64,000 nt of DNA from an uncultured Bacteroidia bacterium (GTDB taxonomy: Bacteria; Bacteroidota; Bacteroidia; Bacteroidales; UBA932): the NCBI GenBank assembly GCA_902788175.1, contig CADAJF010000001.1, positions 38,044 to 102,043 of the forward strand, written 5' to 3'. Made by a program: the position numbers and the translations under genes. This document shows positions 5,260-28,363 of this stretch, piece after piece; position 1 is the first letter of the stretch; every line of letters starts with the position of its first letter. A model generated the notes under the pieces. It did not search any database. It was given only the letters and a program-made list of their open reading frames with translations, and was not told the origin of the DNA.

Positions 5260-5354
5260 TGTTTCAGTATAGTTTCAGTAAGTTTTTTTCACAAAGGGCT
5301 AACAAATTTACCGTGAATTATTTATGGTAAAAAGTCGGCGCTCCCGCCCGAGGC
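5260..5354. other. Att-like island boundary (copy B)
   Basis: Two 11-nt repeats (TGTTTCAGTAT at 5260, AGTTTCAGTAA at 5271) are followed by exactly 61 nt and then CCCGCCCGAGGC at 5343. The 12-mer fits a tRNA T-stem 3' strand (CCCGC) plus acceptor 3' strand (CCGAGGC). Copies C and D keep the same geometry with different spacer sequence. This is read as a fossil attachment site; a small plus-strand RNA is the alternative. Confidence 0.55.
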
Positions 5355-5358
5355 GCGG

Positions 5359-5396
5359 GTACAGCTAATTGATATTCAATTAGCTGTACTTTGTTT
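5359..5396 (+). terminator. Strong hairpin terminator
   Basis: A perfect 14-bp stem (GTACAGCTAATTGA / TCAATTAGCTGTAC) with a 3-nt loop is followed by TTTGTTTTTG. The symmetrical stem may also stop transcription arriving from the STAS gene. Confidence 0.75.
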
Positions 5397-5446
5397 TTGC
5401 CCGGAGAATTCGACAGAAAAGGCGCAGGGAAATACCGGATAGTTCA

Positions 5447-5743
5447 CTACTTGCTGGCTATCTGCATCTGGCGCCTCTTCAAGGCGGTGAGGATGCTGCG
5501 TTCGGCAAGGGGTGTAAGGCCCGTGAAGGTGGTCTTGGATTTTAACTCTTCAAGGGACATTTCCAGCAGGAGTTTTGCGATACATTCATCGGCAAAAGAG
5601 TTGGTGACCGTATCCACGCCTGTAAAATCAAGGACTACTTTCTCATCTCCGTCCAGAAGCGGACGGAGATCGGCCCTTATTTTGGCTCCCAGGAGACGCG
5701 TTCCCAGACTGTCTCCGTATGCGGAAAACTTGAAGACCTTCAT
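5447..5743 (-). CDS. STAS-like DUF4325 protein
   Basis: The 98-residue protein has the DUF4325 signature VVLDFTGVDTVTNSFADECI (about residues 37-56). The STAS fold is related to anti-sigma-factor antagonists. The start MKVFKFSAYGDS is 1 nt after the stop of the ATPase-like gene; a longer frame from 5824 overlaps that gene and is rejected. DUF4325 genes are often paired with HATPase genes, suggesting partner-switching signalling. Targets are unknown. Confidence 0.8.
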   Translation of the reverse strand: MKVFKFSAYGDSLGTRLLGAKIRADLRPLLDGDEKVVLDFTGVDTVTNSFADECIAKLLLEMSLEELKSKTTFTGLTPLAERSILTALKRRQMQIASK

Positions 5744-5744
5744 C

Positions 5745-6395
5745 TTACCAAAGTTTATCAAGACCCGGATCATTATCCAGGAACAATTCATCAAACTCTT
5801 CGGACGGATCCGTTCTGTGGTCAACCACCAGCCCCGGATCGATATCCATATTTGAACGCAGTTCGAAGTAAACGATAGTTCCTTGCCAAGGATCAGATTC
5901 AGTTATGGTCATATCGCCATTGGCCGATAAAGTATGATTACCCGAGCGAATAATCAGCTTATGACCGGCCGTATTGATGAGCCGGGAAGTGGAATACAAG
6001 CCAAAGCCCATTCCCTTACCATCAGAAACCCGGTCTCTAATGCAATACTCAAGTGCTTCCGGTTCAGTTATGCCCGCATAGTCTTGATTCTGAGACAAGG
6101 ACGACTGAATCCCCATTCCATCATCGGCCACCAAAATCTGAATCAAGTGCTTAGCCTCTGAGTAATTGGTGATGACGATTCCATTTGTTTTGCCAGAATG
6201 GATAAGCACGTTATCCATTACCTCGTAGAAACAATAGCTCATCGCCTGAAGAAGAGAAGTCTCCACTTCAGGTTGATGAATCAGCACTTCTACCAAGCGG
6301 CGATACACCTGTTGGATGTTCTTTTCGTCGAACATCTCAATACAGATATTGTCGCTACCTGCAAAGTATTGATGAATTAATGTATCTACGTTCAT
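5745..6395 (-). CDS. HATPase_c (GHKL) ATP-binding protein
   Basis: The 216-residue protein has the GHKL ATP-site motifs: N box (YEVMDNVLIHSGKTNG), G1 (VADDGMGI) and G2 (GKGMGFGLYSTSRL). It lacks a phospho-acceptor histidine domain and membrane segments, so it resembles anti-sigma-factor kinases. With the STAS protein it forms a two-gene unit that may act by partner switching. The start is MNVDTLIHQ: a -7 box at 6425-6432 lies inside the longer frame to 6467, which rules that frame out. Confidence 0.8.
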   Translation of the reverse strand: MNVDTLIHQYFAGSDNICIEMFDEKNIQQVYRRLVEVLIHQPEVETSLLQAMSYCFYEVMDNVLIHSGKTNGIVITNYSEAKHLIQILVADDGMGIQSSLSQNQDYAGITEPEALEYCIRDRVSDGKGMGFGLYSTSRLINTAGHKLIIRSGNHTLSANGDMTITESDPWQGTIVYFELRSNMDIDPGLVVDHRTDPSEEFDELFLDNDPGLDKLW

Positions 6396-6424
6396 AAACA
6401 AATTTGGCGGTTGACCGCTATCCG

Positions 6425-6432
6425 CAAAGATA
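6425..6432 (-). promoter_or_regulatory. -7 box of the HATPase/STAS unit
   Basis: TATCTTTG on the minus strand, 29 nt before the ATG at 6395. Confidence 0.6.
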
Positions 6433-6471
6433 GCAACACAGCACGAAAAAACAAAAAAGGACGTCAATTAA

Positions 6472-6663
6472 TGCCATAGAAAGACACTGAATGACGAAAT
6501 TGTTTCCCAAATGTTACCCTAAAAATAGGCGTTCGCTAGATAACACACTCGTCATCAGGGATTTACACCGAAAAGTTAGTGTCCCCGCCCGAGGCACCTT
6601 ATTTCCGCTTTGTAGATATCTACAAGGCGGTTTTTGTTTTAGGGTGGCATAGAAGGTGGCATA
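6472..6663. other. Att-like island boundary (copy C), repeats on both sides of the core
   Basis: ATGCCATAGAAAGACACT at 6472 is followed by the 11-nt pair TGTTTCCCAAA (6501) and TGTTACCCTAA (6512), 61 nt, and CCCGCCCGAGGCAC (6584-6597). Right of the core, GGTGGCATA is repeated at 6643 and 6655. Phased repeats on both sides of a tRNA-end-like core are what a tyrosine-recombinase attachment site looks like. No recombinase gene is present. Confidence 0.55.
6605..6640 (+). terminator. Hairpin terminator next to boundary C
   Basis: CCGCTTTGTAG pairs with CTACAAGGCGG (one G-U pair), followed by TTTTTGTTTT. Confidence 0.7.
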
Positions 6664-6740
6664 AATCCCAACGCTGAGGACTTGTTTTTCCTATTTGTTG
6701 CCTAATCACGACTGAACTGGGCTTCAGGCCCATCCTTAAT

Positions 6741-6780
6741 AATCCGTCAGTGAGACCTCCGTTTCGCTGATGGATTTTTT
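6741..6780 (+). terminator. Hairpin terminator
   Basis: AATCCGTCAGTGAGAC pairs with GTTTCGCTGATGGATT through wobble pairs and ends in a T-run on the plus strand. Confidence 0.55.
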
Positions 6781-6951: not shown

Positions 6952-9228
6952 TTAATTGTTGCTGTAAGAATATGGCAAATCTTCGGGTTTGGTGCCTCGA
7001 GAAAGGTTGGGAGAGTCGCTCAGGGTGAAGTCCAGCCGTGCACCACCAGTGAGTTCGTTGTGGCGAAGGTAATTTCGGGTAACGCGGCGGCCATTGATTC
7101 TGAAGTTGTCGACGTAGGGAGTCCGGGCGATTTTGTCTGAATCACCTGCAGAGGCGCGGCAGCTTCCCTTCACTCCGGCACGCACGACCAGATTCCCTCC
7201 GGGAAGATGAACAGTAGCTTTTCGGAACAGCGGGGTGCCCAGGGCGTATTCGGTGCTGGTCGGACATACAGGATAGAAGCCCAAGGCGGAGAATACGTAC
7301 CAGGCAGAGGTCTGGCCGTTGTCTTCGTCGCCGCAATAGCCGTCTGGTGCCGGGGTGTAGAATTTCTCCATCACTTCGCGGATGCGGGCCTGGGCCTTCC
7401 ACGGAGAACCGCACCAGTTATACAGATAAAGCATATGCTGGATGGGTTGGTTGCCGTGGGCGTAATTGCCCATATTCATAATCTGCATCTCGCGTATTTC
7501 GTGGATAGTGAATCCGTAGTAGCTGTCATCGAAATCAGGAGGCATCGAGAAGACGCCGTCAAGCTTGGCCTCAAATGCTTCTTTTCCGCCCATAAGGTCC
7601 ATTAGGCCTGCCGGATCATGGAATACTGACCAGGTATAATGCAGCGAGTTGCCTTCCGTGAAATCTCCACCCCACTTCAGGGGATTGAATTCGGCAGGGA
7701 AACTGCCGTCGGCATTGCGCCCGCCCATAAGGCCGTAGTCTTCGCGGAACAACTTTCTGTAGTTCTGTGATGCTTTCTCGTAAGGAGCGAGTTCTTCTTC
7801 GGATTTGCAGAGGTCCTTGCCGAGTTGCCAGATGCACCAGTCGTCATAGGCATATTCGAGGGTGCGGGCGGCACTCTCGTTGATCCCCACATCGCAAGGG
7901 ACATAACCGAGTTCGTCGTAGTAGTCGTAGCCAAGGCGGCCTGAAGCATCCACGGTCGGGTGGACGGAGTGAGCGCCATTGGCGAGCGCATCCCAGAGGG
8001 TTTCGATGTCGTAATCTCCCCGGATCCCCTTGAGCCAGGCTTCAGCGACGACCGAAGCGCTGTTGTTCCCTATCATACAGCCGCGATGGCCGGGGCTGGA
8101 CCACTCAGGGATGAAACCGCTCTCCAGATAGTGGTTCAAGAATCCCTCCTGCATCTTAGATGCCATCTCAGGGTAGACAAGGTCTATCAGGGAGAACTGC
8201 GAGCGGAAGGTGTCCCAGAGGCCGGTGTCCGTGAACAGATAGCCGTCGTGGACCTTGCCGTCATGAGGGCTGTAATGCACTCGCCTGCCCTCTGCCGTAA
8301 TTTCGCTGAAATCGCGTGGAAACAGAACCGAACGGTACAGGCAGGAGTAGAAGGTCCGCAAATGGTCGATATTGCCATCTTCTATCTCGATGCGCGAAAG
8401 GACTTCGTTCCAGCGCTCGCGACCGTCGGCGCAGAGCCTGTCGAAATCACCGTCGCCGAGCTCCAGGAGGTTGGTCAGGGCCTGCTCATGGCTGATGAAC
8501 GAGGCTGCCACCCTCAGACCTACTTTCTGGCCTTTCGATGTCGGGAACCCGACTATGGCATAGGCCCTGCCATGCTCGTCGACCTGTTTGACCGATGTGA
8601 ACGGCGTGTCGCACTCGACCACGAAGTACAGCGCGAAGTTGCCGGCTACTCCTCCAGTGTTGATGGTGCTCACGCCGCTTATCGTGCTGCCGCTTATGGT
8701 GCATTTGCTGCCGGCAAAACCATCCACTACGAGGTATGAGGTCTCGCGCTCGGGATAGGTGATCCTGAAAGCGGCTGCACGCTCGGTAGGGGTGATTTCA
8801 AGATAGGTGTCGTGATCTGCGAGATATACTCCATAATAGTAAGGCTTGGCTACCTCTGCCTTGTGGGAAAACCAGCTTGCACGGGCGTCTTCATCCCATA
8901 CAGCACCGGTCGTGACAGGCATCAGGCTGAACTGGCCGTAGTCATTCATCCACGGGCTTGGCTGATGGGTCATCTTGAAGCCGCGGATCTTGTCTTCTGT
9001 ATACACGTAGGCCCAGCCGTCTCCCATCCTGCCCGTTTGTGGGGTCCAGAAATGAGTGCCCCAGGGCATCGCTATCGCCGGATATGTATTGCCGGTCGAA
9101 AGTGAATGTTTCGACTGGGTGCCGACGAGTGTGGAGACGTAGTCTACGGGCTGCAGCATCTTGCCCTCGGGCCGGGAGCAGGAGACGAGCCATAGAAGCA
9201 GAGGCAGGAGTATAAGTCTTGGTTTCAT
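6952..9228 (-). CDS. GH92 exo-alpha-mannosidase, lipoprotein
   Basis: The 758-residue product starts with a lipoprotein signal (LLPLLLWLVSC, Cys17). It shows GH92 landmarks: GTGNTYPAIAMPWG-like start region (STGNTYPAIAMPWGTHFWTP), GFIPEWSSPGHRGCMIGNNS, HGNQPIQHMLYLYNW, and the C-terminal CGDEDNGQTSAWYVFSALGF. GH92 enzymes are calcium-dependent, inverting exo-acting mannosidases that remove alpha-1,2/1,3/1,4/1,6-mannose. Linkage preference cannot be read here. The ATG overlaps the GH125 stop (ATGA); the frame continuing to 9318 is therefore not the start. It is the last gene of the mannan operon. Confidence 0.92.
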   Translation of the reverse strand: MKPRLILLPLLLWLVSCSRPEGKMLQPVDYVSTLVGTQSKHSLSTGNTYPAIAMPWGTHFWTPQTGRMGDGWAYVYTEDKIRGFKMTHQPSPWMNDYGQFSLMPVTTGAVWDEDARASWFSHKAEVAKPYYYGVYLADHDTYLEITPTERAAAFRITYPERETSYLVVDGFAGSKCTISGSTISGVSTINTGGVAGNFALYFVVECDTPFTSVKQVDEHGRAYAIVGFPTSKGQKVGLRVAASFISHEQALTNLLELGDGDFDRLCADGRERWNEVLSRIEIEDGNIDHLRTFYSCLYRSVLFPRDFSEITAEGRRVHYSPHDGKVHDGYLFTDTGLWDTFRSQFSLIDLVYPEMASKMQEGFLNHYLESGFIPEWSSPGHRGCMIGNNSASVVAEAWLKGIRGDYDIETLWDALANGAHSVHPTVDASGRLGYDYYDELGYVPCDVGINESAARTLEYAYDDWCIWQLGKDLCKSEEELAPYEKASQNYRKLFREDYGLMGGRNADGSFPAEFNPLKWGGDFTEGNSLHYTWSVFHDPAGLMDLMGGKEAFEAKLDGVFSMPPDFDDSYYGFTIHEIREMQIMNMGNYAHGNQPIQHMLYLYNWCGSPWKAQARIREVMEKFYTPAPDGYCGDEDNGQTSAWYVFSALGFYPVCPTSTEYALGTPLFRKATVHLPGGNLVVRAGVKGSCRASAGDSDKIARTPYVDNFRINGRRVTRNYLRHNELTGGARLDFTLSDSPNLSRGTKPEDLPYSYSNN

Positions 9229-10640
9229 AATTCGATTGAGTTGAGAAGCTCGAGCTTGCCGTCGCCGATGATTTTGAGAATCAGTTCGCCGAAAAGGGTG
9301 TTCTGCCAGGCGAACCATTCGCGCGTGAAGTTGTAAGGGTTGTCCTTGTGGAAACTCTCGTGTATGAAACCGGTGTTTGCATCGGTTTTCATAAGGGTCT
9401 CAACGCACCAGCGGATTTCCTCGTCATCGGTTGAGGTGAAAGCCTTCATTAGGATGCTCATCGGCCAGATCATATCATAGCCGATGTGAGGGCCGCCTAT
9501 GCCTTCGGCGGCCGAACCCCGGAAGAAGTAAGGGTTGTCCCCGCTCCAGACGAACCGTCTGGTATTCTTGTAGATGCGGTCTTTTGCAGGGACGTCGCCA
9601 AGATATGGGAGCGCGAGAAGCGACGGCACGTTGGCATCGTCCATGAGGAAGCGGTTGCCGAAACCGTCCACTTCGTAGGCGTAGATCTTTCCGTACTTGG
9701 GATGCTTGTAAACTGCGTATTTCCTGAGCGCACCGACGACTTCGTCGGCCAGGGCACGGCAGTCGGAAGCGAACTGCTTCCGGCCGTTGACCGTCTCCAG
9801 AATCTCGGCGGCCTTGCGAAGTGAGCTGACAGCAAAAAAGTTCGACGGCACCAGAAACTCGAAAGTGGTCGCATCGTCCGACGGGCGGAACGAGGATGCG
9901 ATCAGGCCGACCGGCTTGACAGGCCGGCCAAGGCCATTACACGCCTTCGTGTCGAGCTGGCGGTCGGTGACCCTCGTAAAAGTGTATGGTCCATGACCAT
10001 CCTTGCGCTGCTGTTCGCGGAATGTCGTATAGACCTTGCGCATGGCTTCGAGCCAGGTGGCGTCGAATACAGATTCGTCGCCGGTGACCTTCCAGTACTC
10101 GTACGCCAGGCGGATCACGTAGCAAGGCGAATCAATCTCCCATTTGCGCTCGTGCAGGTTCGGGTCCATCCTGGTGTTGTCGGTCATCCAGCCGGTGCCG
10201 GCAGGGCCGTCGTTGAAGGCATTTGCATAAGGGTCTATGCAGAGGAGGCTGAGCTGGCAGCGCACAGTGCCTTCGAGCATCTCCCTAAGATGCTCGTCTT
10301 GCCCGGCGAGCCGGAGATATGGCCAGACCTGGGCTCCCGAATCGCGCAGCCACATGGCGTGGATGTCTCCAGTGTAGACAAAAGTACGTGGATTGCCGTT
10401 TTCGTCCTTGCCGAAATGCACGGTGGTATCGAGAGTGTTCGGGAAACAGTTCTCGAACATCCAGCGCAACTTGGGGTTGGTGAGCTGAGAAGTGACCTCG
10501 GCGATCTTGGCTTCCACTGCTTCGGACACGAAAAGGCGGTCAGCCACTGCGGGCCGGCGCGAAACAAAGTCCTGGGCTCCGGCATAAAGCGGAGACAGGA
10601 GAAGGAAAAGAAGTAATATCCGTTTCATAAAAGTTTTCAT
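9225..10640 (-). CDS. GH125 exo-alpha-1,6-mannosidase
   Basis: The 471-residue product has a signal peptide (MKRILLLFLLLSPLYAGAQ from its fifth residue) and GH125 motifs: YTGDIHAMWLRDSGAQVWPY, GTGWMTDNTRMDP, EIDSPCYVIRLAYEYW, GGPHIGYDMIWPMSI. GH125 enzymes release mannose from non-reducing alpha-1,6-linked ends, matching oligosaccharides made by GH76. The ATG at 10640 overlaps the upstream stop (ATGA); MKRILL at 10628 is an alternative start. Its stop overlaps the GH92 start, so the three genes are translationally coupled. Confidence 0.92.
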   Translation of the reverse strand: MKTFMKRILLLFLLLSPLYAGAQDFVSRRPAVADRLFVSEAVEAKIAEVTSQLTNPKLRWMFENCFPNTLDTTVHFGKDENGNPRTFVYTGDIHAMWLRDSGAQVWPYLRLAGQDEHLREMLEGTVRCQLSLLCIDPYANAFNDGPAGTGWMTDNTRMDPNLHERKWEIDSPCYVIRLAYEYWKVTGDESVFDATWLEAMRKVYTTFREQQRKDGHGPYTFTRVTDRQLDTKACNGLGRPVKPVGLIASSFRPSDDATTFEFLVPSNFFAVSSLRKAAEILETVNGRKQFASDCRALADEVVGALRKYAVYKHPKYGKIYAYEVDGFGNRFLMDDANVPSLLALPYLGDVPAKDRIYKNTRRFVWSGDNPYFFRGSAAEGIGGPHIGYDMIWPMSILMKAFTSTDDEEIRWCVETLMKTDANTGFIHESFHKDNPYNFTREWFAWQNTLFGELILKIIGDGKLELLNSIEL

Positions 10641-11452
10641 GGAATGTCGACTTCGACAATATCGGAGTAGTTCCACCTGCGGGTGCCGCTGCCACGGGGC
10701 GTGTCGTAGTTGATGCGCGCGGCTGCGCGGATGAAGACTTTCTGTCCGGAGAGTATCGTTCCGTTCGACTTGACCGTAACATTGGTTCCCAGAAGGTCTT
10801 CGAACGACGATCCTTCATAAGAGACGGAACTTGACCACCTTGAGTCGCGGGCGCGGTAACCGGCTGTAGATGAGTAGCTGACAAAAAGCTGCACGTCTGT
10901 CACATTGGCATACGATTCCTTCCAGTCACCGGATTTCCCGATGGCGGCCTTGAGCTCCTCGCGCGATGTTGCACGGGTCACTTTCACGTGGGCCGTAATC
11001 TTGCCGGCACTGACCTGAGGGGAGCCAACGAACTCGACATTGAGGAAAGGCTGAACTGAGAAGTTCACTTCCTTTTCTCCTTTGAGATGGATGTTGACAC
11101 TTTCGTCTTTCATGACAGTGCCTTCGGCGTTCTCGATTACGACAGGCACGAAAGGTCCGTCGATGCGGATGTTGTAGTCTGCTTCGAAAAGACGGGCGTT
11201 GCGGAAGGTCCCGTCAGGCTTGCAGTAGAAGTCCAGAGGAGTTACGTTGCCCTCCCAGCTGGTCTCGATAAGGCGGACGCGAATGCCTTCGGAGCCCTGG
11301 TCGGTCAGCACGGGCGCTCCTGTCTTGGAATCCACGACGCTTCCGTAGAGAACCTCCGAAGGGGCGTCGTAATTGTCCAGCTCAAACAGTTCGCATGAGA
11401 CCGCACACACCGTGAGCAAAAACATACATATAGGAAGTGGAAAACTTTTCAT
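10637..11452 (-). CDS. DUF3823 surface lipoprotein of the mannan locus
   Basis: The 271-residue lipoprotein (CAVSC, Cys20) begins with a DUF3823 domain (VLYGSVVDSKTGAPVLTDQG) of carboxypeptidase-regulatory-like beta-sandwich type. Its C-terminal domain (about 130-271) ends RRWNYSDIVEVDIP. DUF3823 proteins are found after SusD in many polysaccharide loci and are thought to be glycan-binding outer-membrane proteins in the SusE/F position. It starts 6 nt after the SusD stop. The ligand is inferred only from context: alpha-mannan. Confidence 0.85.
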   Translation of the reverse strand: MKSFPLPICMFLLTVCAVSCELFELDNYDAPSEVLYGSVVDSKTGAPVLTDQGSEGIRVRLIETSWEGNVTPLDFYCKPDGTFRNARLFEADYNIRIDGPFVPVVIENAEGTVMKDESVNIHLKGEKEVNFSVQPFLNVEFVGSPQVSAGKITAHVKVTRATSREELKAAIGKSGDWKESYANVTDVQLFVSYSSTAGYRARDSRWSSSVSYEGSSFEDLLGTNVTVKSNGTILSGQKVFIRAAARINYDTPRGSGTRRWNYSDIVEVDIP

Positions 11453-11458
11453 AATATG

Positions 11459-13531
11459 CTATCTGTTTGGCTGTTGATCAATATACGCACTTTTCGAGAC
11501 TTCTCCGCCGGGGATGGCGAAATAATAGTCTATCGTGTCATAAAGAAACTCTTTTTCGCGTGCGAACTGCCAGTTTGCATCGAAGAAGAACTTCTTGTCC
11601 ACTGAACTGTAGAAAGGATAGAGTCCCCGGAGACGGTATCCGGCAGTATTTCCAATGCAGCTGTAATTTCGAACTTCGCCCCAGAAGCCTGAACGCGCTT
11701 CGTAGTGCTGGACTCGCCAGCGGCGGACATCCCACTTCGACTTGTGCTCGAAGGCAAGCTCCTTGCGGCGCTCGCGGCGAACGATGTTGCGGCTGTCGAT
11801 GTCTGCCTTCAGCGGCTGGGTGAGGGCATCGGCTCCCGCGCGTTCCCTGATGTCCGTGATTGCCTGCGTCGCCACCGCGAGCATGTCGTCGCCTTCAACC
11901 GGGCATGCGGCACCTGCGAGTGAAAGTTCGACCCCTGCCTCGGCGGCTGCGAGGAGCACGTCGGCATAGCGCATGAGGATCCATGGTTGCTCGCTCTTGC
12001 CCTCGCCGTGCAGGAACGCAGGATCGGGATTGAGCCACTTGCGCAGGTAGAATCCGGACAGATTGGCCTCGTTGCTCGAGCCGTCGCCGGCGTAGAACGG
12101 GCCGTTCGCACCGGAAGCGTTCATCTTCACTCCGTCGACATCGACCTGGACCTGCATCGATCCCGAGTAGGGGCTCATAACGAGTCTGCCGTCAGAGAAT
12201 GCGCTACTGTTCTGGTAGAAGTTCGAGGTGGCGCGTCCGTATGAATAGTCGTCCCACAGAGGAGAGATCGGAGTGCTTCCTGTATAGATGCCCGTGTAGA
12301 GCTCGATTTCCTCTTCGCGGAACTCGTCGCCGGGAAGGATGACGTATGCACGCAGACGAGGCTCCGCGTTTGCGAAGAAATCCATCGTGGTGTCGTATTC
12401 CAGATAATGTCCGCTGGTGGGGGAGCTTCCGTCGGTAACTCTTATGGTTCCGTCTGCATAGCGGTCGAATCCGTCGAACAGTTCCACGAAGTCGAGGGTA
12501 GGGCAGCTGCCCGAGCAGAGAGGATAACGGAAAATGTAAGGAGAGCAGTAAGCGTCGATCGAGTGGGTGTACGAAGGGTAAGAATACTTGCGGATCAGGA
12601 TTGCCTCCTTGTTGGAAGTCACGTCGCTGAACAGGTCTACCATATTCTTGTACTGCGCTTCGCGGTCGCCGTCTTTCCATGCGTTCTTGTAGAGGCCGTA
12701 GCGGCCCGAATCCATTACGGCGCGGGCTGCCTTGTATGCTTCGGAGAAGTAGCGGATGCTGGCTGCCTGCCAGGTGCTCTCGTCGAAGCCGATGACCCTG
12801 ACACCTGTCTTTTCGCCAAGACCTGTAAGTCGCCCGGGAACGGTCTCGTTGTACTTGGCGACAGAGCCGGCATAAAGCATCGCCTCTGCCTTGTAGGCGA
12901 GGGCTGCGTAACGGTTTGCGTATCCGTCGACTGACCCGGTTTCAGGGAGAAGCTGCGCGGCCATGTCGAAATCCGCACAGATCTGATTCCATGTCTCCTC
13001 CTCTTTCGCGCGCGGAACCTCGAGTTTGTCGGCATCGTTCGGATATGCGATCGTATGGGTTACGAGCGGAATACCGCCGAAGCGGCGTGCCATCTGGTAG
13101 AAGGCCATTGCGCGGGCGAAGTATCCCGTTCCGATGTATTCGTTGAGCGCGATCTCCGAGAATGCGCCGCTGTGCTCCGGCATGGTCTCGATAAGATGGT
13201 TTGCATAGTAGATGAGCTTGAAAGCCTCGCCCCAGTACGGGGTGCTTTCGCCGCGGAAGGTCTGGCAGACTCCGTCGCGGTTGACTGCCTCACCGCAGCC
13301 GTCGATGCCGGGGGCGTTGAGCCAGCCGCTATAATCGAAGCCCCACTCCGCCATGTACTTGAAATCTTCCCAAGGCATGAGGCTGTAGATCTTTGCCATG
13401 TAGATCTCGACACCGTTCTCCGAGTTGAGAAGCTCGTCGTCGGTGACGATGTTTTTCGGAGGAAGATAGAGGTCGATGCATGAACTCAGCAAGAGGCTGG
13501 AAACTGCTATGATAAAGCCGTATTTTTTCAT
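11459..13531 (-). CDS. SusD/RagB-family glycan-binding lipoprotein
   Basis: The 690-residue lipoprotein (SSLLLSSC, Cys18) has the SusD architecture: N-terminal TPR-like helices (ATGYFARAMAFYQMARRFGG as YIGTGYFARAMAFYQ...), the linker GGIPLVTHTI, and the C-terminal DIRERAGADALTQPL / RRERRKELAFEHKSKWDVRR segment. SusD caps the SusC channel and captures oligosaccharides. At 690 residues it is longer than many SusD proteins (500-600). It lies 12 nt after the SusC stop. The mannan substrate is inferred from the GH76/GH92/GH125 neighbours. Confidence 0.95.
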   Translation of the reverse strand: MKKYGFIIAVSSLLLSSCIDLYLPPKNIVTDDELLNSENGVEIYMAKIYSLMPWEDFKYMAEWGFDYSGWLNAPGIDGCGEAVNRDGVCQTFRGESTPYWGEAFKLIYYANHLIETMPEHSGAFSEIALNEYIGTGYFARAMAFYQMARRFGGIPLVTHTIAYPNDADKLEVPRAKEEETWNQICADFDMAAQLLPETGSVDGYANRYAALAYKAEAMLYAGSVAKYNETVPGRLTGLGEKTGVRVIGFDESTWQAASIRYFSEAYKAARAVMDSGRYGLYKNAWKDGDREAQYKNMVDLFSDVTSNKEAILIRKYSYPSYTHSIDAYCSPYIFRYPLCSGSCPTLDFVELFDGFDRYADGTIRVTDGSSPTSGHYLEYDTTMDFFANAEPRLRAYVILPGDEFREEEIELYTGIYTGSTPISPLWDDYSYGRATSNFYQNSSAFSDGRLVMSPYSGSMQVQVDVDGVKMNASGANGPFYAGDGSSNEANLSGFYLRKWLNPDPAFLHGEGKSEQPWILMRYADVLLAAAEAGVELSLAGAACPVEGDDMLAVATQAITDIRERAGADALTQPLKADIDSRNIVRRERRKELAFEHKSKWDVRRWRVQHYEARSGFWGEVRNYSCIGNTAGYRLRGLYPFYSSVDKKFFFDANWQFAREKEFLYDTIDYYFAIPGGEVSKSAYIDQQPNR

Positions 13532-13543
13532 CTTTAGCTCCTC

Positions 13544-20125: not shown

Positions 20126-20170
20126 TTAATCGGGTTATTTTTTTAATTTTCGGGGTATATCCGGTTAATT

Positions 20171-22639
20171 ATGAGGAGGTCTAAATATTTTCTAGCATTA
20201 ATCGCCATTATTTGTGCGTTTGCCCCGGCTTTCGCCCAGGGACTCAGATTCCAGGGTATGGACAAGCGCATCGCGGAGAGGACTTCGTATGATGTCTTCG
20301 GCGACAAGCGAGTCAGGCTCGACGGCTGGCTCTCCATCTGCTTCTCGATGTGTACATACAACACATCCGATTTCGGTTACATCCTCAGGATCACCGACCA
20401 GGGAGAATCCGGCTCCATCTGGAACCTTTCTTACGACAGGGGGCAAAGTCTTACGATGCGTCTCAACGAAGAGGGAAGGTTCAGCCTCATAAAGGCGGAG
20501 CTCGACAAGGAGAACCTTCCTCCGCTCAGATGGGTTGATGTCAAGCTTGAGTTCAACTCCCACAAAGATTCAGTTTATCTTTCGTTGGGAGACAAGGTGT
20601 TCGCTGAGAAGGCGGATCTGCCGGATACCTTCTTTCCGAAAATTCAGTTCGGACGCAGCGGTTTCATTATCGACGTTCCCTCATTTGCCATCCGTGACCT
20701 GCGGGTTTCGGATGACAAGACAGAATACTCTTTCCCGCTCGACGAGTCTGCCGGGACCAGTGTAAGGGACCGGCTCTCCAGGATCAAAGGCAAGGTCACG
20801 AATCCGACTTGGCTCATCAGGGAATCCCTGGAGTGGTCTCAGATCGCAGAACTCCACTGCTGGACCAACGCCGGAGCCAATTATGATCCGGAAAGGAAGT
20901 GTTTCTATTATTTCAGCAGCGACTCCTTATATACATATGACGTGATATCCGGCCAGGTCAGCGAACGCCGCGTCCACTCTCCGCTGTCCATTAATCTCGG
21001 CATGAGCTTCATGCGCGAAGGCAGGCTCTATGCTTACGAGCCGTTTTGTTACGGCCGGCAGGAAGGCGCTCCGACTATAGCATGCCTCGACCCTGAGGCC
21101 GGAAACTGGACAGTCGTGAGCACTGACCATCTTTCGCAACCGTTCCACCACCATGCTTCGTTTATGCGTGGAGACCGCTTCGAGTTTTTCGGCGGCTTTG
21201 GAGAGATGATGTACAACGGAGAATTCTACGCGCTGGACGAGCATTACCGCTGGCATCGCGATACTCTCATCGACAACACTACGCTTTTCCCGCGCTACTT
21301 TACGGCCATGGGCCAGCAGGGTGATCTGGTCTACGTTTACGGCGGTATGGGCAACGAATGCGGCGAACAGATCGTAGGGCGCAGGTACTTCTACGACCTG
21401 CACCGCATCGATCTTGGCAGCGGATCGTGCGAAAAGCTCTGGGAGCACGAATGGGCGGGGGAAGACTGCGTGCCTGCAAGGACAATGGTCATAGACGGAG
21501 ATAAATTCTACGTCCTGTGCTATCCTGAATACAAGAGCGTGTCGCGCATCAGCCTTTACGAATTCGCTATAGAAGATGGTTCATACAGGGTTCTTGCAGA
21601 TGAGATTCCGATCATCTCCGACAAATTGTTCACCAACGCGGCGCTTTACCTCGACAGCGATCTCAAGAAATTCTTCGTCACCACGCTCGTCTTCGACGAT
21701 GACATTCGTTCGACCCTCAAGATATACTCGCTGGCATACCCGCCGCGCTCGTTGGCAGAAGTGGAGGCAGGCGGATCCCGTCAGGTTTCCTGGCTGGTCA
21801 TATTCGGGCTGATCGCCCTGGTCGTGATCCTTGCAATCATCTTGTACATCCGCCACAGACGCGAAAGGGCCCGGGCAAGATACGGCTATCTGCTCTCGCG
21901 AAGTCATCCGGAAAAGAAAAAATTCTCACAGCCCGACAGGGCAAACGCCATTTATCTTTTCGGTGATTTCCAGGTGAACGACAAAGACGGCAGGGATATT
22001 ACCGGGCGTATCTCCGCCCAGCAGAAAAAGCTCCTCTGGCTGCTCGTCAAATACAGCGACTCCCAGGGCGTGTCGACCTCGAGGCTGAGCAGCATCTTCT
22101 GGCCGGACAAGGAGGAAGAGAAAGTCAAGAATTCTCGCGGCGTAGCCATCAATCACCTCAGGAACAGCCTGGCGGATGTAGAAGGCCTCTCGATAGTTTT
22201 CGACAAGGGCTATTATCGTCTGGTGCTGGGCGAGCCGTGCTACTGCGACGTAGTAGATCTGCTCGGGCAGGTCAGCTCCAGGGAACCTGATATGGACAGA
22301 ATTCTTTCGGTCCTTTCGCGCGGCAAGTTCCTCAAGCACGTCGATGATCCTGTCTTCGACTCTTACAAGAGCAGGATCGAGAACGGCGTGTCGCCTGTCC
22401 TCCAGAGCGAGATCGTCCGACGATATAGGTCGAACTCATGGCAGGAGGTCATCGAAATCGCCGATATGATCCTGTATTTTGATCCGCTCGACGAAACTGC
22501 TCTCAAATATGCGACAAGCGCACTGGTACGCATCCAAAGGAATGAGGACGCGCTGCTGCGCTATGCTGCATTCACTTCTGAATACCGGAAGGTGAACGAT
22601 TCCGATTATCCGGTTCCTTTCGAGAAGACTATACTGTGA
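20171..22639 (+). CDS. Membrane-spanning regulator: sensor propeller plus winged-helix/BTAD-like activator
   Basis: This 822-residue protein has a signal peptide (1-22, ending FAPAFAQ). A LamG-like beta-sandwich follows (about 25-210, LDGWLSICFSMCTYNTSDFG). A kelch-like propeller spans about 230-530 (GDRFEFFGGFGEMMYNGEFY, GDLVYVYGGMGNECGEQIVG). One membrane helix (541-563, WLVIFGLIALVVILAIILYI) is followed by RHRRER. The cytoplasmic part has an OmpR/SARP-like winged helix (about 594-690, QKKLLWLLVKYSDSQGVSTS, SRGVAINHLRNSLADVEGL) and an alpha-helical BTAD-like tail. It is divergent from the mannan operon and is its likely regulator. Domain calls are by eye. Confidence 0.8.
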   Translation: MRRSKYFLALIAIICAFAPAFAQGLRFQGMDKRIAERTSYDVFGDKRVRLDGWLSICFSMCTYNTSDFGYILRITDQGESGSIWNLSYDRGQSLTMRLNEEGRFSLIKAELDKENLPPLRWVDVKLEFNSHKDSVYLSLGDKVFAEKADLPDTFFPKIQFGRSGFIIDVPSFAIRDLRVSDDKTEYSFPLDESAGTSVRDRLSRIKGKVTNPTWLIRESLEWSQIAELHCWTNAGANYDPERKCFYYFSSDSLYTYDVISGQVSERRVHSPLSINLGMSFMREGRLYAYEPFCYGRQEGAPTIACLDPEAGNWTVVSTDHLSQPFHHHASFMRGDRFEFFGGFGEMMYNGEFYALDEHYRWHRDTLIDNTTLFPRYFTAMGQQGDLVYVYGGMGNECGEQIVGRRYFYDLHRIDLGSGSCEKLWEHEWAGEDCVPARTMVIDGDKFYVLCYPEYKSVSRISLYEFAIEDGSYRVLADEIPIISDKLFTNAALYLDSDLKKFFVTTLVFDDDIRSTLKIYSLAYPPRSLAEVEAGGSRQVSWLVIFGLIALVVILAIILYIRHRRERARARYGYLLSRSHPEKKKFSQPDRANAIYLFGDFQVNDKDGRDITGRISAQQKKLLWLLVKYSDSQGVSTSRLSSIFWPDKEEEKVKNSRGVAINHLRNSLADVEGLSIVFDKGYYRLVLGEPCYCDVVDLLGQVSSREPDMDRILSVLSRGKFLKHVDDPVFDSYKSRIENGVSPVLQSEIVRRYRSNSWQEVIEIADMILYFDPLDETALKYATSALVRIQRNEDALLRYAAFTSEYRKVNDSDYPVPFEKTIL

Positions 22640-23919: not shown

Positions 23920-24010
23920 TGTTTCAGTAATGTTACACTAAAGAACGAATCCAGGTTGGCAACTATTTGACATTCAATTGGTTCAGTCCGATGGTTAGTA
24001 CCCCCGCCCG
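23920..24010. other. Att-like island boundary (copy D), cut at the core
   Basis: TGTTTCAGTAA (23920) and TGTTACACTAA (23931) are followed by exactly 61 nt and CCCGCCCG (24003-24010). After that 8-mer the shared AGGC is missing and ATPase coding sequence begins. The junction falls inside the shared core. Confidence 0.55.
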
Positions 24011-24392: not shown

Positions 24393-25271
24393 ATGAAACC
24401 ACTCGCAAAATTCTCCTTTCTGTTGGCTGCCGTCATTATGGTGGTTGCACCGGTATCGGCACAGGATAAGACCATCAAGAGGAAAGTCGCCATTGGCCGC
24501 TTCACCAACGAAACGCAGTATGCAAAGGGCATCTTCTACGACAAGGAGAACGATCCTATGCGTAAGCAGGCCCTGGACATCCTTTCTTCCAAACTTGCCG
24601 CCAGTGAAAAGTTTATTCTTCTTGAAAGGGAAGACCTTGATATTCTTGTCGCAGAGGCGGGAGAAGGCATGAACAAAATTGGCGCCGACTATATCATCCT
24701 CGGCTCCATCACTGAATTCGGCCGCAAGGCCGAGGGACAGCAGAAAGTCTTCTCTACAACCAAGACCCAAACTGTTGAAGCCGGAGTAAGTATTCGCCTT
24801 GTCGAGGCTGCCACGGGCTTGATTATCTACTCCGACGAGGCGAAAGGTTTTGCCGAAACCACAACAAAGCAGACTCTGGGCGTAGGCGGAACCGCCGGCT
24901 TTGATGCAACCCTTAGCGACAAAGCCATCTCCTCTGCATTGAGCCAGCTCGTCGAGAACATTATCAACAAGTGCATGGACAAACCTTGGAGGTCTTACAT
25001 CCTTTCTGTTGACGATGGCTCCTATATTATTTCCGGCGGTGCCTCCCAGGGCCTTTCTGTCGGTGATTCTTTCAGCGTCTACAAGAGAGGGAAAACCGTC
25101 AAGAACCCTCAGACCGGACTCAACATCGAACTTCCCGGTCAAAAGATTGGAACCATTTCGGTACAGACATCTTATGGTGAAACTCCCGAAACGGAGATTT
25201 CATTCTGCACATATGAAGGCGAAGCCCTTGATGTGGAGAATCTTGGCAATTACTACATTTCTGACAAATAA
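24393..25271 (+). CDS. CsgG/HfaB-family protein
   Basis: The 292-residue product has a Sec signal (ending VAPVSAQ) and a CsgG domain (about 28-190): KRKVAIGRFTNETQYAKGIF, LLEREDLDILVAEAGEGMNK, GADYIILGSITEFGRKAEGQ, AGVSIRLVEAATGLIIYSDE. CsgG proteins form outer-membrane export channels for curli in Escherichia coli. In many bacteria CsgG-like proteins occur instead with DUF4810 and DUF799 lipoproteins, as here. No lipobox is seen, unlike curli CsgG. It is the first gene of a four-gene operon; export substrate unknown. Confidence 0.85.
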   Translation: MKPLAKFSFLLAAVIMVVAPVSAQDKTIKRKVAIGRFTNETQYAKGIFYDKENDPMRKQALDILSSKLAASEKFILLEREDLDILVAEAGEGMNKIGADYIILGSITEFGRKAEGQQKVFSTTKTQTVEAGVSIRLVEAATGLIIYSDEAKGFAETTTKQTLGVGGTAGFDATLSDKAISSALSQLVENIINKCMDKPWRSYILSVDDGSYIISGGASQGLSVGDSFSVYKRGKTVKNPQTGLNIELPGQKIGTISVQTSYGETPETEISFCTYEGEALDVENLGNYYISDK

Positions 25272-25280
25272 ACCACACAA

Positions 25281-25619
25281 ATGAAAAAGATTATCATTGC
25301 CATTATTGGCGCCCTGATGTTAACTTCTTGTGGTGTAGGATCTTACTCCGTTTCTTCCGGCAAGGCCGACGAAGGAATGATTTCCTTTGTCAGCGAGTCC
25401 AGGACACCCATTACCGTGACCATTGATAATGATACTTACAATGCCTGCACAGTAAAGACCAAAGCCTGGCGCAAGGATAGAAATATCAAAAAGACGGCCC
25501 AGAATACCATCTTTCTCACTCCTGGACAGCACAATGTCATTGTTACCATGAATGGGAAAGAGGTATGCAACAAGAAGGTTTTCATTTCTTCCCAGGAGCA
25601 TAAAGTGATCGAACTATGA
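25281..25619 (+). CDS. Small lipoprotein with a PEGA-like beta domain
   Basis: The 112-residue lipoprotein (ALMLTSC, Cys17) has a short all-beta domain (SRTPITVTIDNDTYNACTVK ... GQHNVIVTMNGKEVCNKKVF) reminiscent of PEGA repeats. Its TGA overlaps the next ATG (ATGA), so it is coupled to the DUF4810 gene. Its role is presumably structural within the CsgG operon product. The PEGA comparison is by eye. Confidence 0.65.
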   Translation: MKKIIIAIIGALMLTSCGVGSYSVSSGKADEGMISFVSESRTPITVTIDNDTYNACTVKTKAWRKDRNIKKTAQNTIFLTPGQHNVIVTMNGKEVCNKKVFISSQEHKVIEL

Positions 25620-26056
25620 GGAAGGTTTTGTCTTTTGCCATAGCCGTTGCTGTGCTTACCTCTTGCGGCATAACCGATGATCTCTACTACTGGGGAGGAG
25701 AACAGAGCGGAACGACAGCTTACGAGAATCTGGCTTATCAATCCTCCCATAAGCAGACGCCCAAAAGTCTCTGCAACCTTGTGGCCGTATATGAGGATAT
25801 GGTTACAAACCCGGGGGGAACCCGCCAAGTTCCACCTCCTGGCATTTGCGCCGAATATGGCTATCTCCTTCTCCAGCCTCAGACAGCTGAAACCTTCCTG
25901 AACAATGCAACTTCGGCCCAAAAGAGGCTGTTCCAGTCTGATGACTACAGTGCCCTGTTCCTTGAGAGGGGGAAAGAAATGCTTCAGAAAGAAATCGAGT
26001 TCTACCCTGAATCGGCCAAGTTCATCGAACCGTTAATCAAGAAACTTGCAAGGTAA
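25616..26056 (+). CDS. DUF4810 lipoprotein
   Basis: The 146-residue lipoprotein (VAVLTSC, Cys17) reads YYWGGEQSGTTAYENLAYQS and PPPGICAEYGYLLLQ, the DUF4810 pattern. DUF4810 is typically encoded between a CsgG-family gene and a DUF799 gene, as in the Neisseria GNA1162 locus. Coupled start (ATGA). It is likely a periplasm-facing outer-membrane component of the same envelope complex. Confidence 0.85.
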   Translation: MRKVLSFAIAVAVLTSCGITDDLYYWGGEQSGTTAYENLAYQSSHKQTPKSLCNLVAVYEDMVTNPGGTRQVPPPGICAEYGYLLLQPQTAETFLNNATSAQKRLFQSDDYSALFLERGKEMLQKEIEFYPESAKFIEPLIKKLAR

Positions 26057-26057
26057 C

Positions 26058-26732
26058 ATGAAAAGACTTATTCCCCTCATTCTTCTTGCCGTAATTGTAA
26101 GTTCCTGCGGTTCAACAAGTCAGATCACCAGGGAGTCTCAGTATGCCGCCATGTATAACGATATGCCCGTCACCATTCTCGTGATGCCGCCTATCAACAA
26201 CACGACAAACGTGGAGGCCAAGGACCTTCTCTATACTTCTATCAGCCGCCCGCTTGCAGAGGCCGGTTATTATGTTATCTCTCCGCTTCTTGCCATGGAT
26301 ATTCTAAAAGCGGAAAGTGCATACGATGCCGAGATGTTTATTGACAAGCCTTTAACGCTGTTTCGAGAGTATTTCGGGGCCGATGCCGTGGTTTTCTCCC
26401 AGATTGACGACTGGACAAAGCGCGGGTTCGGTATAGACACCAAGATCCGATACATCATCAAATCTGCCACTTCAGGTGAAATCTTATTTGACCGTAGCTG
26501 CGATCTTTACCTTGATCTCCAGCAGAACTCTGGTGGCAGTTCTGCGCTTTCTCAGCTTATAGACCTCGCGGTTTCAGCGATTTCAACAGCCGCAACCGAT
26601 CACATCGTTGCTGCCAGGAAGGCCAATTACTTTATTTTCCGCGACATTCCCAGAGGCAAGTATGACCCTCAGTATCTGCAGGACAAGGAAGTGATGGCGG
26701 AAAAGAAGGATGTCAAGATGACAGTCAAATAA
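26058..26732 (+). CDS. DUF799 (GNA1162-family) lipoprotein
   Basis: The 224-residue lipoprotein (VIVSSC, Cys17) shows the DUF799 core: VTILVMPPINNTTNVEAKDL, SISRPLAEAGYYVISPLLAM, FGADAVVFSQIDDWTKRG. GNA1162 of Neisseria meningitidis belongs here and has a fold related to TolB/CsgG-type periplasmic domains. The start MKRLIPLIL follows the previous stop by 1 nt. The last 8 nt overlap the end of the convergent truncated zinc-ribbon gene. Confidence 0.85.
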   Translation: MKRLIPLILLAVIVSSCGSTSQITRESQYAAMYNDMPVTILVMPPINNTTNVEAKDLLYTSISRPLAEAGYYVISPLLAMDILKAESAYDAEMFIDKPLTLFREYFGADAVVFSQIDDWTKRGFGIDTKIRYIIKSATSGEILFDRSCDLYLDLQQNSGGSSALSQLIDLAVSAISTAATDHIVAARKANYFIFRDIPRGKYDPQYLQDKEVMAEKKDVKMTVK

Positions 26733-26916: not shown

Positions 26917-27005
26917 ATTAACAAAGATAATCATTTTTACATTCTTTCCCTGCCGTCAGTGCCCGCGCCGCGGCCGCATTTGGAACCATCCAAGAGGTAG
27001 TTTTA

Positions 27006-27206
27006 TTAATCTTCCTCCTCCAGCTCAAACACAGACTCTGCTGGTTTGCCAAAAAACTTGGCAATCTTAAAAGCAAGTACGGCAGAGGGAACATAACCTC
27101 CGGCCTCGATAGAATTGATAGTTTGCCGGCTCACGCCAACGGCAGTTGCCAGTTCCTGCTGGGTAATATCTTTGATCGCCCGCTCTACTTTTACAGTATT
27201 CTTCAT
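27006..27206 (-). CDS. Small XRE-family regulator
   Basis: The 66-residue protein is almost only an HTH domain (ITQQELATAVGVSRQTINSI, EAGGYVPSAVLAFKIAKFFG). It fits the compact YozG-like XRE group that accompanies small membrane proteins. Its ATG overlaps the stop of the membrane-protein gene (ATGA), so the two form one unit. It probably represses its own promoter; targets unknown. Confidence 0.85.
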   Translation of the reverse strand: MKNTVKVERAIKDITQQELATAVGVSRQTINSIEAGGYVPSAVLAFKIAKFFGKPAESVFELEEED

Positions 27207-27649
27207 TTCCCTGCCCTCCTGATTGCTCTCATTGTGAAATTGAACTTAAGGATGTAAATGATGTAGTAAAGATAGATTGCAGCAATAGCAAAGCTCAAAA
27301 AATAGCCCCCCATTATGAAAAGAATGCCAAAGGCCAGGATGGCCGATGTGAGCCAAAGACTCCAGACAAAAGACTGCATCCGGATATGAGCGGTCATTTC
27401 GTCTTCATCTTTCTCACGGGACAGGGCAACGAAGCAAAGGGAGACCAGCAGTCCCATCATGCCGACTTCGGTCAGAAGATCGGCTTTCCCTTGATAGAAT
27501 AATCCGTCCCCAAAGGCTATCCACGGAATCTGGATGCTTGGAAGGTTTACATCGAAAAAGCGACAAAGGCAAATAACCGCGAAAGGAAGAAACATCCACA
27601 TCCCTACTCTCTTGTAGGTGTAAGGCAGAAGATAATTATGTGTTTTCAT
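27203..27649 (-). CDS. Small integral membrane protein paired with the XRE regulator
   Basis: The 148-residue protein has about four membrane helices (near 17-35, 57-75, 88-110, 112-135), with a short charged loop ALSREKDEDEMTAHI between the second and third. It resembles the membrane partners of small XRE regulators in Bacteroidota and Firmicutes, whose function is unknown. The start MKTHNYLLPYTYKRVG lies 35 nt after a -7 box; a longer frame to 27706 crosses that box. Confidence 0.7.
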   Translation of the reverse strand: MKTHNYLLPYTYKRVGMWMFLPFAVICLCRFFDVNLPSIQIPWIAFGDGLFYQGKADLLTEVGMMGLLVSLCFVALSREKDEDEMTAHIRMQSFVWSLWLTSAILAFGILFIMGGYFLSFAIAAIYLYYIIYILKFNFTMRAIRRAGK

Positions 27650-27683
27650 AAGGCAATGGCTATAATTATTCGTTTCACCGCTG

Positions 27684-27691
27684 CAAAAGTA
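27684..27691 (-). promoter_or_regulatory. -7 box of the membrane-protein/XRE pair
   Basis: TACTTTTG on the minus strand fits TAnnTTTG and fixes the start at 27649. Confidence 0.6.
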
Positions 27692-27872
27692 AAAACAATT
27701 TTCCAATTTGTCAAGTTTATTTTACATTATTTCTTAATGTATATTCAAAGGCGTGTATTGTGGAAAATACATTTTGTGAGCAGCCTTTCTGTGTGGAATT
27801 ACGATACGAGGATGAAAAATCTGATCATATTGAAATAGTCAATAATGACGGAGAATTGACGCCGGGTGCAAC

Positions 27873-27891
27873 TGTTCGGAAATTCCGAACA
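27873..27891. repeat. Palindrome TGTTCGGA-AAT-TCCGAACA
   Basis: Eight-bp arms with a 3-nt spacer in gene-free sequence. It could be an operator. There is no coding frame nearby. Confidence 0.4.
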
Positions 27892-27992
27892 ATTTAACAG
27901 GAAGGAGAACGGATGGTTAGCTCCATTACAACCTGCAAGTGACTATCTCCGCAGGCTTTAGGTGAACAATGATCTTTTGGTAATGCACGAAA

Positions 27993-28018
27993 AAAGACCG
28001 CTGTCATTGGCGGTCTTT
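27993..28018. terminator. Bidirectional hairpin terminator
   Basis: AAAGACCGC pairs perfectly with GCGGTCTTT across an 8-nt loop, preceded by A-run and followed by TGTGTTTT. Confidence 0.65.
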
Positions 28019-28096
28019 GTGTTTTACATTTTAACTAAAGGACAGTCATACGCCCTGGTTATTTGTTCCGAGGCAAAGATAAGCACTTTTCTTAAG

Positions 28097-28118
28097 TTGG
28101 ACAACATTTGGACAACAT
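28097..28118. repeat. 11-bp phased TTGGACAACAT pair
   Basis: TTGGACAACAT occurs at 28097 and again, exactly abutting, at 28108. It is the same layout as the pairs at boundaries B, C and D but with another sequence. The stretch 28119-28265 is AT-rich without a gene. Confidence 0.55.
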
Positions 28119-28269
28119 CTTTTAAAATAAAGTAAAATGGAATTCGACAGATTACCGTTATTTCGAGTGGCGAACAACAATTTAATATATTATAGTTCAG
28201 TTATTTATATATTTATTCACAAGCCGCATTATATCATATTCTTCCGTATTCAGCCGTCTATACGTGCGT

Positions 28270-28363
28270 TCCGCCCGAGGCACAGAGTATAGAGCCAACT
28301 GCTTGACTATCAGCGGTCGGCTCTTTTCTTTATCGATCTCTGTCCCCAAAAAGTCCCAATACT
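28270..28363. other. Att-like island boundary (copy E)
   Basis: TCCGCCCGAGGCAC at 28270 matches the cores of B and C with one change. A hairpin follows, then GTCCCCAAAAA (28342) and GTCCCAATACT (28353), again an 11-nt phased pair to the right of the core, 64 nt away. Confidence 0.45.
28291..28330 (+). terminator. Hairpin terminator next to boundary E
   Basis: AGAGCCAACTGCT pairs with AGCGGTCGGCTCT with one mismatch and is followed by TTTCTT. Confidence 0.55.

Follow-up and report, generated by a model that had tools for sequence, protein, structure and literature searches.

How do unrelated groups of accessory genes come to lie one behind another, each closed by the same short sequence at a fixed distance from a repeat pair? 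The question is raised by a stretch of 64,000 nucleotides (nt) from an uncultured Bacteroidia bacterium of the UBA932 lineage (GenBank assembly GCA_902788175.1, contig CADAJF010000001.1), here called the window, which covers bases 38044-102043 of this contig (C1 of genome G000) and whose right edge is the contig end. A preliminary description of the window had proposed that a HATPase/STAS unit, a mannan locus and a CsgG region arrived as separate elements, were stacked at one tRNA gene and lost their integrases. This stacking is supported by a match between the boundaries and the 3′ end of a tRNA-Leu(UAA) gene and by the lack of a detected integrase on the contig, and stacking at one tRNA by tyrosine recombinases, with the integrases lost or absent, is the best reading of the locus. 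Very probably the boundaries are attachment (att) sites used by tyrosine recombinases of the arm-binding kind, with the 3′ end of tRNA-Leu(UAA) as their target, and the locus is a tandem accretion of integrase-less segments comparable to cis-mobilizable elements (CIMEs).

The tRNA-Leu(UAA) gene and copies of its 3′ end

The preliminary description had predicted a tRNA gene ending in the 12-mer that marks the boundaries, and such a gene exists: tRNA-Leu(UAA) at C1:34845-34930, 3.1 kb left of the window and on the same strand as the boundary cores, has the 3′ end CCCGCCCGAGGC. This 12-mer occurs three times in the genome, at the cores named B and C and at the 3′ end of the tRNA gene itself (C1:34917-34928), so that the tRNA end is repeated as a core at far boundaries, with copies at B and C and variants at 1538 and at cores D and E. 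The array from the tRNA to core E spans ~31 kb and is one-directional, the cores of G000 being found on the plus strand only, and 8.5 kb lie between the tRNA and core B. The boundary sites, in coordinates of the window, are the following:

1538..1550 (+): degenerate core, CCGCTCAAGGCAC, with two changes, preceded by AACATCTTAGCTC
5260..5281 (+): putative arm-type pair of core B, TGTTTCAGTAT AGTTTCAGTAA
5343..5356 (+): core B, a copy of the tRNA-Leu(UAA) 3′ end, CCCGCCCGAGGC, then GC where the tRNA has AC
6501..6522 (+): putative arm-type pair of core C, TGTTTCCCAAA TGTTACCCTAA
6584..6597 (+): core C, CCCGCCCGAGGCAC, the same as the tRNA end
6598..6640 (+): hairpin and T-run 3′ of core C, a putative terminator brought by the left end of the next segment
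6643..6663 (+): putative left-end arm pair of another class, belonging to segment C-D, GGTGGCATA twice
23920..23941 (+): putative arm-type pair of core D, TGTTTCAGTAA TGTTACACTAA
24003..24010 (+): core D, CCCGCCCGtgcc, which leaves the tRNA-end sequence after 8 nt
28097..28118 (+): repeat pair of core E, a different right-end class, TTGGACAACAT twice, at 28097 and 28108
28271..28283 (+): core E, CCGCCCGAGGCAC, the last recognised core before conserved backbone
28342..28357 (+): GTCCC pair right of core E, spaced 11 nt apart, possibly the left end of one more segment that has lost its right core

At B, C and D the start of the repeat pair and the start of CCCGCCCG are 83 nt apart (22 nt of repeats and 61 nt of spacer, read directly from the sequence), and the pairs described earlier at 5260, 6501 and 23920 are present exactly, with CCCGCCCG at 5343, 6584 and 24003. 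The continuation of cores B and C as AGGC likewise stands, core D instead reading CCCGCCCGTGCC, and the GTCCC pairs right of core E were found at 28342 and 28353. Two details had to be adjusted: the variant core E is present but starts at 28271 rather than 28270, and the phased pair right of core C, GGTGGCATA at 6643 and 6655, has a step of 12 nt rather than 11. The 61 nt had been called poorly conserved, but this does not hold for the whole spacer, some columns of which are conserved and resemble a site for integration host factor (IHF). Absent from the earlier list were the TTGGACAACAT pair left of E, the core at 1538 with its two changes and, 1.4 kb after tRNA-Leu(UAA) on the window's contig, an arm pair that lacks a core; the AACATCTTAGCTC flank of the 1538 core also precedes an intact core in a relative (G334, 9866). 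On its own, CCCGCCCG occurs in the window at chance frequency (6 seen, 4.5 expected). The combination of arm pair and core with a gap of 60-68 nt was found three times in the 2.09-Mb genome, always in this stack, and not at all in a reversed control.

Anatomy and distribution of the segment ends

The search for the repeat-spacer-core pattern in related genomes, suggested by the preliminary description, was successful. Within the family it was found in 8 of 398 genomes (G000 included) with 12 matches, all of one total length, nine gap sizes having been allowed, of which the observed gap is the largest. The tRNA-Leu(UAA) gene was recognised in five of these eight genomes, and the cores lie downstream of it in the tRNA orientation, single or stacked. 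At least two cores lie beyond the tRNA in G381, G334, G315 and G459, and one in G397 and G340. A search of GTDB r220, in which three shorter and three longer gaps were allowed too (seven spacings), returned 38 matches in 36 stretches. Seven stretches (L153, L162, L166, L167, L171, L175 and L177) were judged to be there by chance from their missing ACAGAAA/TTAGTG context, and have lengths of 91 (three times), 92 (three times) and 94 (once); the remaining 31 matches in 29 stretches were judged genuine, and all 31 have the length 91 and thus a single spacing. A variant of the pattern with the core 2 nt earlier and two extra fixed bases gave no match in GTDB r220. Several of the GTDB contigs are the same records as genomes of the family and genus sets (those with G numbers), so that the sets overlap. 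The titles of the 29 genuine records read Bacteroidales, Bacteroidia or Paludibacteraceae in 28 cases and Clostridia in one; eight name a ruminant host, 12 carry a RUG isolate name, which we take to mean rumen uncultured genome, and nine are without a stated source. The right end on the Clostridia-titled contig (L173:4270-4360) has the full context, and reflects either wrong binning or transfer between phyla.

The fetched DNA contained 35 distinct right-end matches, among them one chance match (L153) and one genuine end in G486, and the other 33 have one spacing, which is therefore common to 33 of the 34 genuine distinct right ends. These 33 were analysed together. Not counted were core D, other decayed cores, ends lying too close to the edge of a contig, ends that duplicate another across their first 95 nt, and the two matches with 1 nt more (L153 and the G486 end). 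Their consensus is approximately GACACTAACTGACAGAAATGTTTCAGTAWWGTTWCASTAAA, the spacer, GTTAGTGTTC and the core, and the average information content is highest in the core (1.90 bits), followed by the arms (1.58) and the spacer (0.69), although some spacer columns are nearly invariant. Spacers were scored against the consensus for IHF: the half-site TCARNNNNTT is present in 20 of the 33 (mean 1.4, maximum 5 in 500 shuffles) and the full consensus in four (mean 0.13 in shuffles), counts that are not independent since the sequences are related. Arms, a bend site and a core, in this order, make up the layout of a lambda-type att site, and the 11-nt repeats look like arm sites of an integrase, repeats of this kind lying ahead of an arm-binding tyrosine recombinase just behind tRNA-Leu(UAA) or tRNA-Leu(CAA) in three relatives.

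On the other side of the core, at the left ends, a hairpin followed by a T-run was found after 26 of the 33 cores, against 4.8 on average and 9 at most when the sequences were shuffled 50 times; the same criterion picked out 7 of 32 control windows upstream and 3 of 27 downstream. The hairpin sequences vary from segment to segment. A similar hairpin directly follows the tRNA-Leu(UAA) gene itself in the window's genome, and since it is found both there and after most cores, the hairpins are read as terminators. In the simplest reading, each element supplies a terminator for the tRNA that it rebuilds.

Integrases, cargo and the tRNA genes of relatives

Two relatives with integrases were reached from arms that have no core at the usual spacing. 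In G406, tRNA-Leu(UAA) is followed by the core, the hairpin, two TGTTTCAGTAA repeats at 125 nt from the core, a promoter-like sequence (by eye) and then the integrase P0001, which has the domains Arm-DNA-bind_5, Phage_int_SAM_5 and Phage_integrase. An 81% identical homologue follows tRNA-Leu(UAA) in G504, with slightly different repeats at 125 nt, and a 72% homologue follows tRNA-Leu(CAA) in G292, with repeats also at 125 nt; the tRNA-Leu(CAA) core of G292, CCCGCTCTGGGCAC, also terminates the G486 right end. Predicted integrases of the tyrosine family thus stand at the tRNA-Leu site in three relatives, directly behind the tRNA and with like repeats. More distant matches of P0001 (32-47% identity) number ten, seven of them beside tRNA-Leu(GAG), tRNA-Leu(CAG), tRNA-Gly(GCC) or tRNA-Met(CAT) and three without a tRNA found. 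Several of these relatives (L246-L255) have different phased repeats upstream (by eye), and they possibly form a natural series of integrase, arm and tRNA specificities. Broken remains are seen as well: G388 holds an N-terminal integrase piece with 79 matching codons at a like left end. In G404 (contig C16, after the core at 3727; L098) the place that the integrase has at the G406 and G504 left ends is taken by a small gene resembling that of ribosomal protein S21 (by eye).

For the window's islands, the earlier statement that integrases are missing agrees with the absence of any PF00589 match from contig C1. The four Phage_integrase matches of the genome are all on other contigs, and none of its PF00589 matches falls into the P0001 clade at E <= 1e-50 (at most three candidates per genome scored). 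Eighteen bounded segments were compared, 15 of relatives and three of the window's contig (1538-to-B, B-C and C-D), with lengths of 1.2-17.4 kb and a median of ~2.1 kb, and none of the 18 has a tyrosine integrase detectable with profiles of tyrosine recombinases, the one recombinase family covered (PF00589 in the case of G000). Two separate draws of 400 genomes of the genus gave the arm pattern in 26 and an integrase at >=72% identity in three, the integrase scan having scored at most three candidates per genome. In the two genomes with both, the arm match is the integrase's own left repeat, and 8 of the 26 arm-pattern genomes, the two integrase carriers included, have no recognisable core at the usual distance. 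Elsewhere in G000, on contig C14 (L258:8050-9443), a 443-aa tyrosine recombinase is preceded by arm-like TGTTACTCGTT repeats with 11-nt steps. The recombinase gene is preceded by one for a GTPase (YchF-like by eye), no tRNA was found in the 20-kb stretch, and the recombinase is a candidate for an integrase acting in trans.

P0001 scores far below the cut-off for integron integrases (41 against 265 bits), and the window's contig has no tyrosine recombinase detected. Phage and plasmid records contain only distant integrases, none at >=60% identity, and the identity of P0001 to phage records is at most 26.5% among the matches listed (15 of 19). An origin from phages or satellites was considered and set aside for want of clear support, viral_contigs having given only six arm-pattern matches (chance by context) and no close relative of P0001. 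In the integrase-bearing elements 2 of 10 proteins match PHROGs, one of them a DNA polymerase family, and few of the proteins other than the integrase match known families.

The genes of the window that lie between or beside the boundaries are:

4784..5116 (-): HTH_3 gene, XRE-like, next to the right end at B; D likewise has a similar HTH_3 gene next to it (23339-23791)
5447..5824 (-): STAS-like DUF4325 gene, cargo of B-C
5745..6467 (-): HATPase gene, cargo of B-C
6952..22639 (no strand assigned): mannan-type polysaccharide locus in C-D, with GH92, GH125, GH76, SusD-like and TonB-dependent receptor genes and others
24393..26732 (+): gene cluster in D-E, CsgG, DUF4810 and GNA1162-like

The units named in the preliminary description fared differently. 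B-C, like many segments of relatives, is bounded by cores on both sides, and as a unit it is real: most of it, 1142 nt that carry the HATPase and STAS genes and extend to core C, recurs in G315 immediately after the tRNA with 87.7% nucleotide identity, whereas the 16-kb backbone left of the tRNA is 75-76% identical between the window's genome and G315. B-C is without the left 0.9 kb that G315 has, and this 0.9 kb contains half an arm. The two ends of the mannan segment are unlike, the left one having GGTGGCATA repeats and the right one TGTTTC repeats; C-D is therefore probably a fusion, and the mannan locus may sit in this fused segment; the last 1.3 kb before core D, which is itself decayed, are 94.1% identical to the end of a segment in G315. 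The E end belongs to a different class. The left flank of core E, the region of the TTGGACAACAT pair, corresponds to a stretch of G334 between a core-like site and an integrase gene, the match stopping at the integrase start, and core E seems to be a right end belonging to another class of integrase, with the int gene missing here.

A 1.4-kb segment with a single AAA_14 ATPase gene is found at different places of the stack in G334, G232, G397 and G402, where it is 76.9-92.4% identical; between G232 and G397 the identity is 92.4%, compared with 69% over 579 nt at the xer locus of the same pair. Segments that species have in common reach 88-94% identity where the chromosomes are 69-79% identical, and the segment order differs. 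The scanned cargo of relatives includes RhuM, KilA-N, HipA, AbiEi and TIR proteins.

The tRNA-Leu(UAA) genes of relatives have a feature of their own. Those of G232, a sixth of the eight family genomes with the pattern, and of G459 and G534 bear an intron (read by eye), and a group I intron (RF00028) is present in the tRNA-Leu(UAA) of a number of genus genomes, whose gene was missed by ARAGORN. All 12 loci chosen as intron-like (L121:1237-1442, L099:1168-1386 and 10 further loci) match RF00028 at E <= 4.7e-6, two of them above the gathering score. A supposed class of 5′-truncated tRNA-Leu genes was rejected on these grounds, its members being tRNA-Leu(UAA) with this intron. A literature search gave nothing on group I introns of tRNA-Leu in Bacteroidetes. 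In G393 (L101) and G354 (L119) the 3′ part of the tRNA is repeated behind the tRNA-Leu gene as a short direct duplication, with the copies 56 and 61 bp apart.

Origin of the segments and comparison with known systems

In the preferred reading, the 3′ end of tRNA-Leu(UAA) would be the place at which an arm-binding tyrosine recombinase inserts DNA. With every new arrival the tRNA would be rebuilt from the incoming element while the old 3′ end is pushed away as an attR core, and repeated insertions would leave the one-directional stack that reaches core E. At B, C and D the right ends would follow a single att design, in which a pair of arm sites of 11 nt each is followed by an IHF-like bend site, then by a flank of the TTAGTG type and the core. 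The left ends would provide a terminator for the tRNA transcript that the insertion interrupts, and some classes of them another pair of arms as well. A P0001-type integrase would bind the repeats. The segments themselves would be integrase-less derivatives (cis-mobilizable, CIME-like) that are still moved now and then and not wholly dead, either by an integrase in trans, which is plausible, or as part of composite circles.

Several observations weigh against this account. The ends of C-D and D-E are mismatched or decayed, so that some segments are fusions or relics, and the G486 right end (L217, reverse strand), which has the tRNA-Leu(CAA)-type core, has its arms 1 nt further from the core. 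No transfer genes were found among the cargo proteins scanned, not every open reading frame having been scanned. The three integrase-bearing elements (G406, G292 and G504) show no second core up to the contig end, so the link between integrase and right end rests on the shared repeats, core and tRNA. The window's genome is a draft that is 84.5% complete, and a trans integrase may therefore be absent from the assembly. The precise empty site that the preliminary description had called for did not turn up: a search of 58 genomes via the right-flank gene PSP1 revealed no site where the chromosomal flanks agree on either side, draft assemblies breaking near such arrays. Beyond E, a block of G232 that is collinear although inverted shows that backbone has resumed by ~30774. 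PSP1 lies within 35 kb of the tRNA in G000 and ~23 kb from it in G232 (rearranged); in G260 and G217 it is on the tRNA contig but 307 kb and 139 kb away. For all others of the 58 genomes, either PSP1 sits on a different contig or the position of the tRNA was not assigned. Since PSP1 is near the tRNA only in G000 and G232, the right flank is not a conserved neighbour.

A more sombre interpretation is that the stack is a graveyard of once-complete, integrase-bearing elements, whose remains move today only by homologous recombination or inside larger elements. The decayed cores at D and 1538, the broken integrase piece in G388, the lack at E of the integrase that its G334 relative has and the missing 0.9 kb of B-C all fit such decay. 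Against it stand the arms, flank and core, which in 33 right ends are much better conserved than the spacer although an integrase was detected near few of these ends in the DNA retrieved, and the single-gene ATPase segment, which four species share, two of them having it next to the tRNA and two at a greater distance. This explanation is given a real but less than even chance. The opposite extreme, in which small cassettes with one standard att site each are inserted and excised by a trans integrase and the tRNA serves as the primary site, resembles an integron. Several of the 18 bounded segments carry one or two complete genes, with the short median length and the lack of detected tyrosine integrases noted above; the arm pattern is more frequent in the genus than the close integrase; the arm match coincides with the integrase's own left repeat where both occur; and the four-species segment has a right att site only, without a recognisable left arm. 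At its fullest, this would mean that Bacteroidales, many from ruminant guts, run an integron-like cassette system on tRNA-Leu(UAA), in which single- to few-gene cassettes (AAA ATPase, RhuM, KilA-N, HipA, AbiEi, TIR and metabolic loci), each with an arm-bend-core att site and its own terminator, are exchanged between species by a rare trans integrase. Both the cassette mechanism and this wider picture are rather doubtful. No trans integrase was identified in these genomes (at most three candidates per genome scored), ordinary tRNA islands have arm sites and three-domain integrases of just this type, draft genomes break near arrays and may so have lost integrases that were linked to them, and 8 of the 26 arm matches, both integrase carriers included, lack a recognisable core at the usual distance.

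The preliminary description had also offered a family of plus-strand small RNAs as an alternative, to which the hairpins and T-runs after 26 of 33 cores would correspond. This is very improbable: a similar hairpin follows the tRNA gene, the hairpins differ in sequence between segments, no Rfam family matches were found in the window, and the conserved part consists of the tRNA end and the repeats upstream of it.

What the probable insertion of integrase-less segments at tRNA-Leu(UAA) offers is a searchable signature (repeat pair, 83 nt, tRNA-Leu end) for an accessory-gene hotspot of uncultured Bacteroidales, together with a named integrase that probably reads it. The cargo of the hotspot includes a locus for mannan use, toxin-antitoxin-like genes and candidate defence genes. 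With more integrase-less units than integrases at hand, movement in trans becomes directly testable, and proof that small units move in this way would lift the locus above an ordinary example. A literature search gave no description of this locus in Bacteroidales among the titles and beginnings of abstracts listed.

The stack shares features with several known systems. Like integron cassette arrays it consists of one-directional small genes with a recombination site each and one anchor site, but no integron integrase was found, and duplex repeats and a tRNA end stand in the place of attC, which was not searched for as such. Tycheposons, too, are tRNA-anchored elements with adaptive cargo; their hosts differ, and the likeness is one of description. 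In the tRNA and tmRNA islands of tyrosine integrases collected by Islander, a regenerated target gene and a displaced fragment mark the ends, as they do here, although no segment of the window keeps an integrase (PMC4383910). CIMEs are comparable elements that keep attL and attR, have lost the integration and transfer genes and are stacked by later arrivals through site-specific integration, but they occur in the context of integrative and conjugative or mobilizable elements (ICEs and IMEs) and CIME-ICE tandem transfers have been observed, whereas no helper and no transfer genes were identified here (PMC5704250). The ssrA islands of Dehalococcoides comprise 16 with an integration module and 15 without one, and the latter were suggested to be cis-mobilizable (PMC3146451). 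As in the present locus, tandem islands lie downstream of one RNA gene, bounded by short copies of its 3′ end and a conserved flanking motif; there, however, a serine recombinase acts at ssrA, as opposed to a tyrosine recombinase, tRNA-Leu(UAA), two 11-nt repeats and an IHF-like site, with none of the 18 bounded segments carrying a detected tyrosine integrase (PMC3146451). The Dehalococcoides ssrA islands (PMC3146451) and the CIME model (PMC5704250) are the closest parallels, and tandem accretion of integrase-less islands is a known kind of structure, here in an unusually cassette-like form.

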